From a virus, in IMG/VR virus record IMGVR_UViG_3300009008_000282, positions 1 through 21,732 of that record: DNA of 21,732 bases, one strand, 5' to 3'. Both the position numbers and the translations under genes were made by a program. Below are positions 17,379 through 20,704 of the stretch, piece by piece (positions within the stretch are counted from its first letter, which is position 1; each line of letters starts with the position of its first letter). Below the pieces are notes generated by a model that was given only the letters and a program-made list of their open reading frames with translations, did no database searches and was not told the DNA's origin.

Positions 17379-19643
17379 TTATTTCCTCAGCTTTCTTATG
17401 TTATCACCAGTCTTTTCGTCTATACCCAATCCTTTTCCTTGACCTGTTGTATAAGTTAATACATCTGGTGTATATGCAATATGTCGTTTACCTTTCTCAC
17501 CTGCAGCTCCATATCCTTGTCCTATACCGAGAACATCACTTTGATTGCCTTTATTAGATGCTAAGAAACAATCCGGAGGAGATTTTTTCTCATGTTCAGA
17601 ATTGAAATATATTCCTGTGGCCGTATCTATTATAGCACTGGACTCTGAACCAGCCTCTCTAGTGATCCAGCCGTCGTGAACTTTCATAGAAATCCTATGA
17701 TGAGCATTTAAATCTATTCTACCATGACTAGCGTTATCTAATGATTCTACCTCTGGTGATGGTACAAAAAATTCCATTGTCCCAGCTGTCATACTAATTC
17801 TTGATGGAGATTCTGCATTTCGTGAACCTGCACTGTGTTTCCAAGTTTTATCAGATTCTTTAGTACATTCTCCTTCGATGTTAATATGACCACCAGCCAC
17901 CATATTAATATCTCCATCAGCTCTAAAATTTAAATTGCGTTTAGAATAAACTTCTATATCTCCACCAGAGGCAACCTTCATTCTCCACTTGGACGTCAAA
18001 CTCATTTTTTCATTAGCAGCAATTAAAACATCATTATCTCCTGTCCATATAACATGACCCTTCACATATAGATAATCATCATGTACACTTATGTTATAGC
18101 GGTCGCCCTTTACATAATCTACTTTAGTTCCTTCTTGATCTACTTCATAGTAAGTCCCTGCTCTGTGATATTCATGGATACGTTCTGCACCAGGCGTGTC
18201 ATCAAATTCCTTTACATGACCTGACTCAGATTCGTAAACATGATTGTATGGATACTCTGCAGCATATCTGCTAGATGGTTGATTCCAATATCCTACATAC
18301 TTACCATCATCATCGTAGCCGGCCACACTATTTAAATCTTCACCACCAATATTGATCTGTCGCTCTCTAGAATTTGCTTTACTCGCCAACATCGGATGCG
18401 GATCAACCAACATAGTACCTCCCCGGATGTACTCTCCTAATGGAGTTTGACTCGGAGCTGCAATTTTAATTATGCCAGATGTTGCACCTAGAGTTGCACC
18501 TGTTAAAGTAAACGTCTGACCATTCAAAGCTTCCATACCAACAATACCTGCAAGCTGTACTTTGTCACCTTCACCAATATTCGGTTTAACTTTATAACTG
18601 AGGGCTATAGTAGTTGCTGTGCCATTAATATTAGTAATCGTTGCACCGCCTTGGGCTAATCTATTAGTATCATTTCTAGGTAATATAATCTTTTCCGAAC
18701 TAGAGAGATCATCAAAAAATTTACCATCTTTTTTAGAACCATAAACACCATCTTCAAATAGACCTCTTATATATGTTGTTTGTACTGTTGTTAATCCAGA
18801 TTTTAAAATTGTTTCTAATCTGGGATAAGGCATCCTATCAGCATCCGCCTTTTCTTTGATTAATGGCCAAAATGGACCATTAGTTGTATCCCGTGTATCG
18901 TCATCTTCTAGATATCCTGTACTAATAATCTTACCAGCCTTATCCTCAGGACTGGTTTTGTTTTGCGTGTGATGGAATTTCCATTCTGTTGTTTTTGAAC
19001 CGTCACCATAATTCTCACCAGAATCTTTTTGTGTAGGTATAGTTAATCGTCTAGTAGTTCCAAATGTATCATACAATCCTTGTGAATGAGCACTAATTGT
19101 TGCAGTCTGTGTTTTTAATGCGGCCGCCCCCTCTATTTCAATGTAACTTAATATTTTTAAATCTTCTTCTGAAGGTTTGGCTGTTACTGTTCCACCAGAA
19201 CCTGATCCTACATGAGTAGTTGTATCAGGCTCATATGGAAGATCACCACTTACAGTTGTCGGATCATAAAACCCAAACTGATTATCTGTTCCTCTAGCAG
19301 AACCGTGAGCATTCATTTGTGTAGCTACTCTAGTATTCTTACCAGGTAACGTGCCCATTATAACAGGCTCTTGCATTGCATCTGGATCTCTAAAGAAACC
19401 TACGATCCAAGACCCTTCAACTATACCAATTGGAGAGTCTCCTATTCCAGCCATAGCATTACTACCCACAGGTTGCATAACCTCAGCCCAGGGCAAATCA
19501 TCTGTTTTTATTTTTTCTTTATCTTCGGTGTGATAACCTAAAGCACGAACCCTTACTCGACCGAGTTTTTCTGGATCATGTCTATCTTCAACTACACCAA
19601 CAAACCAAACGAAACCATCTCTACCTAAAAATCCTGTATTCAT
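17379..19643 (-). CDS. 5: Baseplate hub/central spike protein gp5 (VgrG-like, no lysozyme domain seen)
   Basis: gp5 forms the trimeric cell-puncturing needle at the tail tip. The N-terminus is an OB-fold: LGRDGFVWFVGVVEDR (about 6-21), LGRVRVRALGYH, LPWAEVMQPV, GSWIVGFFRD and PVIMGTLPG (to about 101). The conserved C-terminal spike region begins at about 465 (NHVYESESGHVKEFDDTPGA) and runs into needle-type beta repeats (about 500-590: GDRYNISVHDDYLYVKG, RNLNFRADGDINMVAGGHIN). T4 gp5 has 575 residues with an internal lysozyme; here the 360-residue middle shows no lysozyme signature. Residues about 334-395 instead resemble the FCCH-like beta fold seen in phage proteins (GMEALNGQTFTLTG). A late promoter ends 5 nt before the ATG and no SD is visible. 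Confidence 0.88.
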   Translation of the reverse strand: MNTGFLGRDGFVWFVGVVEDRHDPEKLGRVRVRALGYHTEDKEKIKTDDLPWAEVMQPVGSNAMAGIGDSPIGIVEGSWIVGFFRDPDAMQEPVIMGTLPGKNTRVATQMNAHGSARGTDNQFGFYDPTTVSGDLPYEPDTTTHVGSGSGGTVTAKPSEEDLKILSYIEIEGAAALKTQTATISAHSQGLYDTFGTTRRLTIPTQKDSGENYGDGSKTTEWKFHHTQNKTSPEDKAGKIISTGYLEDDDTRDTTNGPFWPLIKEKADADRMPYPRLETILKSGLTTVQTTYIRGLFEDGVYGSKKDGKFFDDLSSSEKIILPRNDTNRLAQGGATITNINGTATTIALSYKVKPNIGEGDKVQLAGIVGMEALNGQTFTLTGATLGATSGIIKIAAPSQTPLGEYIRGGTMLVDPHPMLASKANSRERQINIGGEDLNSVAGYDDDGKYVGYWNQPSSRYAAEYPYNHVYESESGHVKEFDDTPGAERIHEYHRAGTYYEVDQEGTKVDYVKGDRYNISVHDDYLYVKGHVIWTGDNDVLIAANEKMSLTSKWRMKVASGGDIEVYSKRNLNFRADGDINMVAGGHINIEGECTKESDKTWKHSAGSRNAESPSRISMTAGTMEFFVPSPEVESLDNASHGRIDLNAHHRISMKVHDGWITREAGSESSAIIDTATGIYFNSEHEKKSPPDCFLASNKGNQSDVLGIGQGYGAAGEKGKRHIAYTPDVLTYTTGQGKGLGIDEKTGDNIRKLRK

Positions 19644-19648
19644 ACATA

Positions 19649-19656
19649 TATTTATA
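19649..19656 (-). promoter_or_regulatory. 5: T4-type late promoter (TATAAATA) abutting gp5
   Basis: A perfect octamer followed by TATGT and the gp5 ATG. With T4-like geometry, initiation falls at or beside the A of the ATG. It lies just after the terminator at 19681-19707, so it restarts transcription for the tail operon. Confidence 0.65.
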
Positions 19657-19680
19657 TAGATAAACTAATTTTGTATTCAT

Positions 19681-19707
19681 AAAAAAACCCCTGCCGGAGC
19701 AGGGGTT
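19681..19707 (-). terminator. Strong intrinsic terminator ending the right-hand gene block
   Basis: On the minus strand, AACCCCTGC pairs perfectly with GCAGGGGTT around a 4-nt loop (TCCG), and a run of T residues follows directly. The plus strand lacks a T-run after the hairpin, so the terminator acts on leftward transcription. It separates the small accessory genes and the structured non-coding stretch from the late gp5 transcript. Confidence 0.9.
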
Positions 19708-19710
19708 CTT

Positions 19711-19890
19711 AAACAGCTTTACGGGCTGTTGCCTCAGTTGGTATCGGCAGAGCAGTGCTATCTAGATCACTTTTGATGCCTGAATTTAGTCGAGGACTTT
19801 TCTATAATATTGCCTACCGTTTGTAGGACTTTTCTCTCAAGTTATTGCGATTCACACCGACCGACAGATCGCAAGTCTGCCGGACCATCA
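19711..19890 (-). ncRNA. Candidate structured non-coding RNA ending at the terminator
   Basis: A gene-free stretch with many paired segments, unlike the other gaps in the window. Seen directly: a 6-bp hairpin AACAGC/GCTGTT (19712-19717 with 19725-19730); a long-range pairing CGGCAGA/TCTGCCG (19745-19751 with 19876-19882), flanked by GGT/ACC; a 7-bp stem TTGCGAT/ATCGCAA (19845-19851 with 19868-19874); a 5-bp hairpin CCTAC/GTAGG (19813-19817 with 19823-19827); and two short 4-bp stems. An 11-nt direct repeat AGGACTTTTCT occurs at 19793-19803 and 19825-19835. The strand is inferred from the terminator that follows on the minus strand. No known RNA family was recognised and no clear promoter is visible, so it could also be a processed 3' UTR of the upstream gene. 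Confidence 0.45.
19793..19835. repeat. 11-nt direct repeat AGGACTTTTCT, two copies 32 nt apart
   Basis: Exact copies lie at 19793-19803 and 19825-19835 in the non-coding stretch. Each is adjacent to a small hairpin: AGTC-gag-GACT with the first copy and CCTAC/GTAGG with the second. This suggests a duplicated structural or protein-binding element. Confidence 0.6.
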
Positions 19891-19916
19891 GTATCGTTTC
19901 ATTTTTCAACCTTCTT

Positions 19917-20339
19917 CTATTCTGTTAATCTCCAATGACCTGCATAATCTCTGCAAGCCACTCCCCATGCCAACTCATAACGTCCACCAATGTTTACTTC
20001 CATCTGAAACTCTCGGCATAGTTCTCCACGATAATTTCGGAACTCATGTACTACAGGATACCTATGTCCATTATGATAATGATATCCATATCGTCTATCA
20101 TAATTATGGTAATGATCTAAATGATAGTGTCCCCAATTCGGAGAATGTGAATATGTATTTGGTGATGACCCTATAGTTCCGTGTGCATGATTATGACTGT
20201 GACTATGACCTGTGATGGGGAAATGCATTTGAATACTCCAATGTACATTTCCTGCATTAACATCAAAAGGCATTACAAGTCCCAGCATCAATACAATGCC
20301 GACAGCATACAAATACAATTTCTCTATATCAACTTTCAT
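19917..20339 (-). CDS. Secreted histidine-rich protein with 17 kDa surface-antigen-like C-terminus
   Basis: A 140-residue protein with a signal peptide: charged MKVDIEK, then hydrophobic LYLYAVGIVLMLGLVMPF, and a probable signal peptidase I site after A29 (VNA-GN). There is no lipobox cysteine. Residues 33-98 hold 16 histidines, many alternating (GHSHSHNHAHG, HYHLDHYHNY, YGYHYHNGH), which suggests metal binding. Residues about 104-138 (RGELCREFQ, VNIGGRYE, ACRDYAGHWRL) match the conserved C-terminal motif of the 17 kDa surface-antigen family of bacterial outer-membrane proteins, including its two cysteines (C108, C129). The chosen ATG overlaps the upstream TGA (ATGA) with GGGGA before it; an ATG 12 nt earlier is possible. 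The role is unknown; cell-envelope modification or superinfection exclusion are guesses. Confidence 0.75.
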   Translation of the reverse strand: MKVDIEKLYLYAVGIVLMLGLVMPFDVNAGNVHWSIQMHFPITGHSHSHNHAHGTIGSSPNTYSHSPNWGHYHLDHYHNYDRRYGYHYHNGHRYPVVHEFRNYRGELCREFQMEVNIGGRYELAWGVACRDYAGHWRLTE

Positions 20340-20704
20340 TTTATTCCCCATGATTCTTTTAATGTCTTAATAACAGTTTCAAAATTTCCTGTGTAAGAAG
20401 CTTTTCCTAAATTTAAAATTCTAAGAGTTAAAGCTACATTATTAAATGTATATCCAATAGTATTATCTAATCTATCAACAGAAATTGCTAATGGGTGTTT
20501 GGATATAGAATTGTAACTCTCATCTAAACTAATCCCAGACCAATAACACTTACCATCTTGATCTGAAAATTTTTGAATTAGATCATCAGGTGTTAATTCA
20601 ATTTTCTTTACTGTAAGACCTTGACCTTTATTTTTTCTAGCAGCATTTCTATCCTGACCAAATTTAATATTGGCCATTAATTTTTTAGCTGTTTCTTCTT
20701 TCAT
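20336..20704 (-). CDS. HNH-like endonuclease family protein (altered catalytic position)
   Basis: A 122-residue protein whose C-terminal two thirds resemble small phage HNH/His-Me-finger proteins: GKCYWSGISL (51-60), then ISVDRLDNTIGYTFNNVALT (74-93) and a closing RILNLGK. In canonical HNH nucleases the segment equivalent to SVDRLD carries the catalytic histidine (D-H-I/L); here it is arginine. Activity is therefore uncertain, though this DRxD variant is common in phage relatives. The N-terminus is Lys/Arg-rich (AARKNKGQG), consistent with nucleic-acid binding. The gene starts 8 nt after the upstream stop and ends in an ATGA overlap with the His-rich gene. It may be a free-standing homing-type nuclease or a DNA-processing factor. 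Confidence 0.6.
   Translation of the reverse strand: MKEETAKKLMANIKFGQDRNAARKNKGQGLTVKKIELTPDDLIQKFSDQDGKCYWSGISLDESYNSISKHPLAISVDRLDNTIGYTFNNVALTLRILNLGKASYTGNFETVIKTLKESWGIK

Follow-up and report, generated by a model that had tools for sequence, protein, structure and literature searches.

A candidate family of structured RNAs with exchangeable cores in uncultivated marine T4-like myoviruses

T4-like phages count among the most abundant viruses in the sea, and we know of few RNAs in them other than tRNAs. What, then, occupies a 273-nt gap (19644-19916) between two minus-strand reading frames of an IMG/VR virus record, whose 21,732 bases (hereafter the window) carry T4-type baseplate genes (gp6, gp25, gp5 and others) on the minus strand? 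The preliminary description had called this gap the only sizeable gene-free stretch, and it is the largest in the window. Judged by sequence comparison, the minus strand from 19918 to 19681 is a member of an undescribed structured-RNA family of uncultivated marine T4-like myoviruses.

Several features noticed beforehand could be assigned to defined structures. Positions 19711-19890 are rich in G+C, as had been claimed (45.6% against 37.0% window-wide, with only 1.5% of 180-nt windows equally rich). The long-range 7-bp pairing, TTGCGAT/ATCGCAA, turned out to join the hairpin loop at 19869-19875 to 19845-19851 and thus to form a pseudoknot, and the 11-nt direct repeat AGAAAAGTCCT at 19825-19835 and 19793-19803 corresponds to the 5' arms of P0 and P1, two helices that resemble each other. 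The hairpin AACAGC...GCTGTT (19712-19730) is present, as is the terminator on the minus strand (19681-19707). The proposed limits, 19711-19890, placed the element but not its ends: it starts some 20 nt further upstream, at a Shine-Dalgarno (SD)-like match and mini-ORF, and it stops at the terminator. Folding of the whole region beat chance only modestly (z = -1.96, 3/100 shuffles equally good), so the case for a structured RNA rests on conservation and covariation. Minimum free energy folding of full elements was likewise uninformative for P1 and the core, both of which are thermodynamically weak in single-sequence folds.

Searches with the neighbouring proteins and with patterns derived from the gap yielded a family of about 35 contigs (L numbers below). 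A full copy comprises, in order, the SD, the mini-ORF, the pseudoknot (present in some copies, the window's among them), P0, a core that P1 closes, the terminator, the motif TATAAATA, and gp5 or an AsnRS-like gene. In the window these features and their neighbours are:

19917-20351, minus strand: upstream accessory gene, 144 aa, without a PHROG or Pfam match
19910-19918, minus strand: SD-like AGAAGAAGG, overlapping the end of the upstream gene
19888-19902, minus strand: mini-ORF ATGAAACGATACTGA (MKRY*); relatives have MKRE, MKREQY, MKRERY, MKYE, VKREK and others
19876-19883, minus strand: 5' arm of the pseudoknot stem, CCGGCAGA, covarying
19869-19875, minus strand: pseudoknot loop CTTGCGA, pairing with 19845-19851
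19861-19868, minus strand: 3' arm of the pseudoknot stem, TCTGTCGG, covarying with the 5' arm
19845-19851, minus strand: second pseudoknot strand ATCGCAA, with covariation read by hand
19813-19827, minus strand: hairpin P0, CCTAC-AAACG-GTAGG, in the context AAAGTCCTAC..GTAGGCAATAT (model R2)
19792-19795, minus strand: P1 5' arm CCTC, pairing with GAGG
19775-19780, minus strand: P2 5' arm GGCATC (GGcATC/GATaCC in the window)
19746-19774, minus strand: type-2 core AAAAGTGATCTAGATAGCACTGCTCTGCC, with a hairpin of AGTG (19768-19771) and CACT (19754-19757)
19740-19745, minus strand: P2 3' arm GATACC; GATaCT, with a G-U pair, in L127 and L138
19732-19735, minus strand: P1 3' arm GAGG; CCTC/GAGG in the window, CCTT/AAGG in L127, L138 and L120
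19712-19730, minus strand: optional hairpin AACAGC-CCGTAAA-GCTGTT, retained in L127 and missing from L138
19681-19707, minus strand: intrinsic terminator AACCCCTGCTCCGGCAGGGGTTTTTTT; homologues also have a hairpin and T-run
19649-19656, minus strand: T4-type late promoter motif TATAAATA, 3' of the RNA and 5' of gp5
17379-19643, minus strand: gp5, baseplate hub/tail lysozyme (PHROG 430, E = 5e-79), the downstream gene

A 5'-domain HMM built without the window matched it at 19915-19790 with E = 8.7e-27, the next window match having E = 0.79, and for pseudoknot-bearing copies it cleanly split family from non-family loci. One copy was found per record scanned, the records being contig fragments. 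The element was always in sense orientation, co-directional with and right after the upstream gene and ahead of a terminator, and the unit from SD to terminator occurred in several upstream contexts. The RNA lies directly 5' of gp5 in L007, L009, L019, L120, L127 and L138; in L008, L018 and L034 the RNA is followed in turn by a gene for an AsnRS-like class-II synthetase, a tRNA with anticodon GTT, and gp5; and it also precedes the AsnRS-like gene in L022, part of L038-L061, L073/L074 and others. A minus-strand ORF sits between the RNA and gp5 in L118 and L121, and a single copy came from a marine MAG contig (L167).

The 5' edge of the unit is marked by translation signals. An SD-like match followed by an ORF of 3-9 codons was present in 22 of 23 homologues, and both were retained despite differing upstream genes; L019 has a tRNA in that position. 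As read from the sequences, the mini-ORF stop falls 3-4 nt 5' of the pseudoknot stem in most copies that carry the pseudoknot. At this edge we could assign no conserved promoter, and TATAAT is limited to some type-1 copies. We rejected a reading of the mini-ORF as a toxic minigene of the lambda bar type, as the codons before the stop vary among copies. At the other end, the late promoter motif lies downstream of the RNA in all 23 homologues checked, in keeping with the proposal of a structured phage RNA that ends at its terminator where late tail transcription begins. With its own terminator and a separate late promoter, read-through transcription aside, the RNA is more than just a 5' UTR for gp5 or the synthetase gene.

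Is the structure under selection? The preliminary description had suggested looking for covarying base pairs in homologous gaps; such gaps were found, and their base pairs covary. The H-type pseudoknot of the window was not matched by any of 300 dinucleotide shuffles. It is carried also by L007, L118-L121, L127, L138, L019/L022, L073, L120 and L059, with stem variants CCGGCAG/CTGTCGG, CTGGCAG/CTGTCAG, CTGGCAG/CTGCCAG, CGTAAGG/CTTTACG and CTAGTGGGA/TCCCATTAG, and with loop pairings TTGCGA/TCGCAA, TTGTGA/TCGCAA, GCGA/TCGC and GCGA/TTGC. The P0 hairpin, also written AAAGTCCTAC..GTAGGC across the family, has compensatory arm versions in relatives (CCTAC/GTAGG, CCTGC/GCAGG and CCAAC/GTTGG), and six copies have a second hairpin, P0b, of 6-4-6 geometry, whose five different arms are always complementary. 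In type-1 cores, described below, both P1 (CCAAC/GTTGG, CTAAC/GTTAG, AAAC/GTTT) and P2 (AAGT/ACTT, AGGT/ACCT, AGGA/TCCT) covary, with a covariation score reached by none of 500 shuffles. Helices read by hand, P0b, the pseudoknot and P2 among them, were picked as paired, and tool-counted covariation uses MAFFT alignments, in one of which (A4) five rows have P0 misaligned. Compensatory changes of the kind expected of a structured non-coding RNA gene thus occur at conserved helices among the homologues. The structure is well supported by these compensatory mutations, and the gap element is very probably a real structured RNA.

At least three kinds of core are found in the family. Type 1 was recognized at 21 loci with E <= 2e-16 using model R1, a count that includes the set from which R1 was built; its invariants are AAGGCTCTG...CCGATATCCTCT, and its loops have 3, 4 or 5 nt between identical flanks. 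R1 found no match in the window, whose core is therefore of another type. This type 2 shares TGAYCnnGATARCAC with L120, L040 and L051. Four sequences underlie the description of the window's own core. The third type, carried by L118, L119, L121 and L136, consists of ATTATGTAATGATGAGCC.CGGGCCAACTACATAAT within a P1 of CCTAC/GTAGG or CTTAC/GTGAG. A search for antisense targets of the core invariants found, outside the element, chance-level sites only in the sequences searched. We also noted in L040, L051 and L039 a long structured stretch, TTTGACGGCCTTTGATAGAATGATTCTAGACC...GAGTTAAACTGAGGC, common to all three and lying between the type-2 core and the terminator.

The distribution of these cores does not follow that of their surroundings. 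Relative to its near twin L007, the window is 95.9% identical in the upstream gene, 95.2% in gp5 and 86.8% in the scaffold; in contrast, the cores are only 66% identical, against a shuffled control mean of 64%. Conversely, the window shares a core (90.8%) and a scaffold (89%) with L127 and L138, while its gp5 has just 51% amino-acid identity to that of L127. As the identity of the core is at odds with that of the flanks, the core has moved independently of them. At the level of sequence identity these comparisons demonstrate that the scaffold stays while the core is replaced, that is, that cores are exchanged.

Some neighbours of the element are of interest in themselves. Histidine-rich small proteins are encoded directly 5' of the RNA in several phages (window 19917-20351; L118:1765-2277; L121:378-884). 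The accessory block of the window contains an Endonuclease VII/HNH-like gene (20336-20704; PHROG 3322, E = 1.5e-20), which adjoins the exchanged RNA cassette and is a possible agent of local recombination. A class-II (D,K,N) synthetase-like gene of about 283 aa is followed by a tRNA in L008:1381-2328, L018:5218-6069, L034:5317-6284, L140 and L141, and homologues of the synthetase, annotated as 'tRNA ligase', occur in cultured P-SSM2 and P-SSM7. The tRNA carries the anticodon GTT (Asn), but its variable arm is long and its body resembles that of tRNA-Leu; together with the synthetase-like protein it could constitute a private Asn-decoding or charging pair. Inside the AsnRS-like reading frame, near its 5' end, is a hairpin that resembles a terminator, GACC..GGTC or the like with 8-9 T after it (L018 about 6010, minus strand; L008 about 1420, plus strand; also P-SSM2 and P-SSM7). 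It is kept in 13/13 loci checked, with a stem that varies in places, and may possibly serve intragenic termination or transcriptional slippage. Finally, L008:1027-1150, between tRNA-Asp and the RNA element, is a gene-free, apparently structured stretch (GTTGCATC...GAGGCACCGCAAC) with no Rfam match.

The initial impression that the gap matches no known family was confirmed. Rfam 15 gave nothing in the window at the gathering threshold and only tRNAs in homologous loci; sub-threshold matches were at chance level, the best being istR with 26 bits of the 45 required. Neither ARAGORN nor Rfam detected a one- or two-piece tmRNA. Five BLAST queries taken from the window and its relatives gave no credible match to the element among 50,697 phage records, and covariance models R1 and R2 had no significant match in four cultured Kyanoviridae (P-SSM2, P-SSM7, Melnitz-3, Mosig). 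The literature, as far as it was covered, describes other marine phage RNAs and not this one. RNA C and RNA D of T4 (species 1 and 2) resemble it in setting, being small stable RNAs near tRNA genes of a T4-type myovirus; unlike the gap RNA, they sit within the tRNA cluster, and they matched neither R1 nor R2 (best 5.2 and 2.8 bits) nor the scaffold HMM. The manA, wcaG, PhotoRC-II, CfrI and glutamine riboswitch motifs are likewise structured RNAs of cyanophages or marine T4-like phages, found mainly by comparative genomics (PMC2864571, PMC9964418, PMC9004378), but manA and wcaG belong to the 5' UTRs of metabolic genes; the gap RNA, by contrast, is terminated before a late promoter. The permuted two-piece tmRNA of Melnitz-like phages, which are related marine myoviruses, is likewise structured and includes a short reading frame (PMC9004378); in contrast to it, the mini-ORF of the gap RNA comes with an SD and a start codon of its own. 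By these comparisons the gap RNA belongs to a new structured RNA family.

What might such an RNA do? Both a small RNA and a structured 3' UTR, the two options named in the preliminary description, are compatible with the sequence evidence. If the RNA served as a structured 3' UTR or insulator of the upstream accessory operon, guarding mRNA 3' ends and halting early transcription without any function in trans, its invariable position right after a co-directional gene, its terminator and the late promoter beyond would be expected. A terminator alone would suffice for that purpose, however, and conservation begins at a new SD and mini-ORF whatever lies upstream, even a tRNA; moreover, the pseudoknot and the invariant unpaired bases of the core exceed the needs of insulation. 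We regard this account as rather unlikely. A similarly doubtful standing falls to a cis-acting leader or attenuator, in which read-through of the terminator into gp5 or the AsnRS-like gene would depend on whether the mini-ORF is translated or on a ligand that the core binds. Such a device could well have its SD and mini-ORF, a pseudoknot within a few nucleotides, structured domains and a terminator in just this order, and many type-1 copies do lie directly 5' of the AsnRS-like gene. Yet the promoter that follows the terminator in every copy checked means that the RNA is bypassed when the downstream gene is transcribed late, the downstream genes vary (with the intervening minus-strand ORF in L118 and L121), and the mini-ORF codons fit no amino acid of a downstream pathway. 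P1, moreover, shares no bases with the arms of the terminator, and we saw no conserved antiterminator or alternative pairing with the terminator, in single-sequence folds that place P1 poorly.

Processive antitermination, in which an RNA acts on its own transcribing polymerase, would suit the tandem hairpins P0, P0b and P1 transcribed just ahead of the terminator. HK022 put RNA, likewise a phage RNA of hairpins beside terminators, provides a precedent (PMC9378689). Set against put by description, the gap RNA stops at its terminator; a strong terminator ends each copy and would need overcoming, and the exchangeable cores are left unexplained, which makes this mechanism improbable. Core exchange is itself recombination at the locus, as a DNA-level element (a cruciform, or a replication or recombination site) might produce, but the G-U pairs retained in helices (GCGA/UUGC, UUGUGA/UCGCAA and that of P2) and the constant sense orientation ahead of a terminator render a DNA element very improbable. 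Scarcely any credence is due to a short or decayed protein gene. The window does have a frame ending in ...STALPIPTEATARKAV* near 19711-19795; that frame, however, is opened by a stop and has no start codon, L127 has a stop in the same frame, and L138 is without its 3' part. Indels in type-1 cores that are not multiples of three shift the frame, and the loops of 3, 4 and 5 nt between identical flanks rule out coding; we thus rejected this reading.

The comparison shows homology of the copies, the pseudoknot, helices P0, P1 and P2, the 5' SD and mini-ORF, the terminators, the late promoter and replacement of the core. Our preferred reading, held with roughly even confidence, is that the minus strand yields a separate structured RNA, about 200-250 nt long and with termination of its own, because a discrete RNA acting in trans accounts best for independent termination, a strict scaffold and core exchange. 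Its transcription would accompany or follow that of the upstream accessory genes and end at the RNA's own terminator just before the gp5 late promoter; we infer that the RNA would accumulate as a stable small RNA during infection. The scaffold of pseudoknot and P0 might provide stability or bind a protein, and the exchangeable core might bind a target in host or phage and in this way confer specificity. On this reading the gap RNA would be a small RNA, probably trans-acting, with a swappable specificity core.

The mini-ORF points to involvement of the ribosome, which would suit a cis-acting leader equally. A ribosome halted on it would overlap the pseudoknot stem and could control folding or release; the closeness of the mini-ORF to the pseudoknot suggests that folding is gated by translation, and leaves room for attenuation too. 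More speculatively, a fixed scaffold with interchangeable cores, recombined between co-circulating marine phages, might serve in conflict as a decoy, guide or inhibitor gated by a ribosome on the minigene, a proposal we advance only tentatively; equally tentative is its setting, whether between phage and host or between phages. With a mini-ORF, pseudoknot, hairpins, terminator and late promoter, the family is well defined, and covariance models are ready for use on marine metatranscriptomes, in which existing data allow the existence and timing of the transcript to be checked. Exchange of the core as a cassette suggests that selection acts on specificity.
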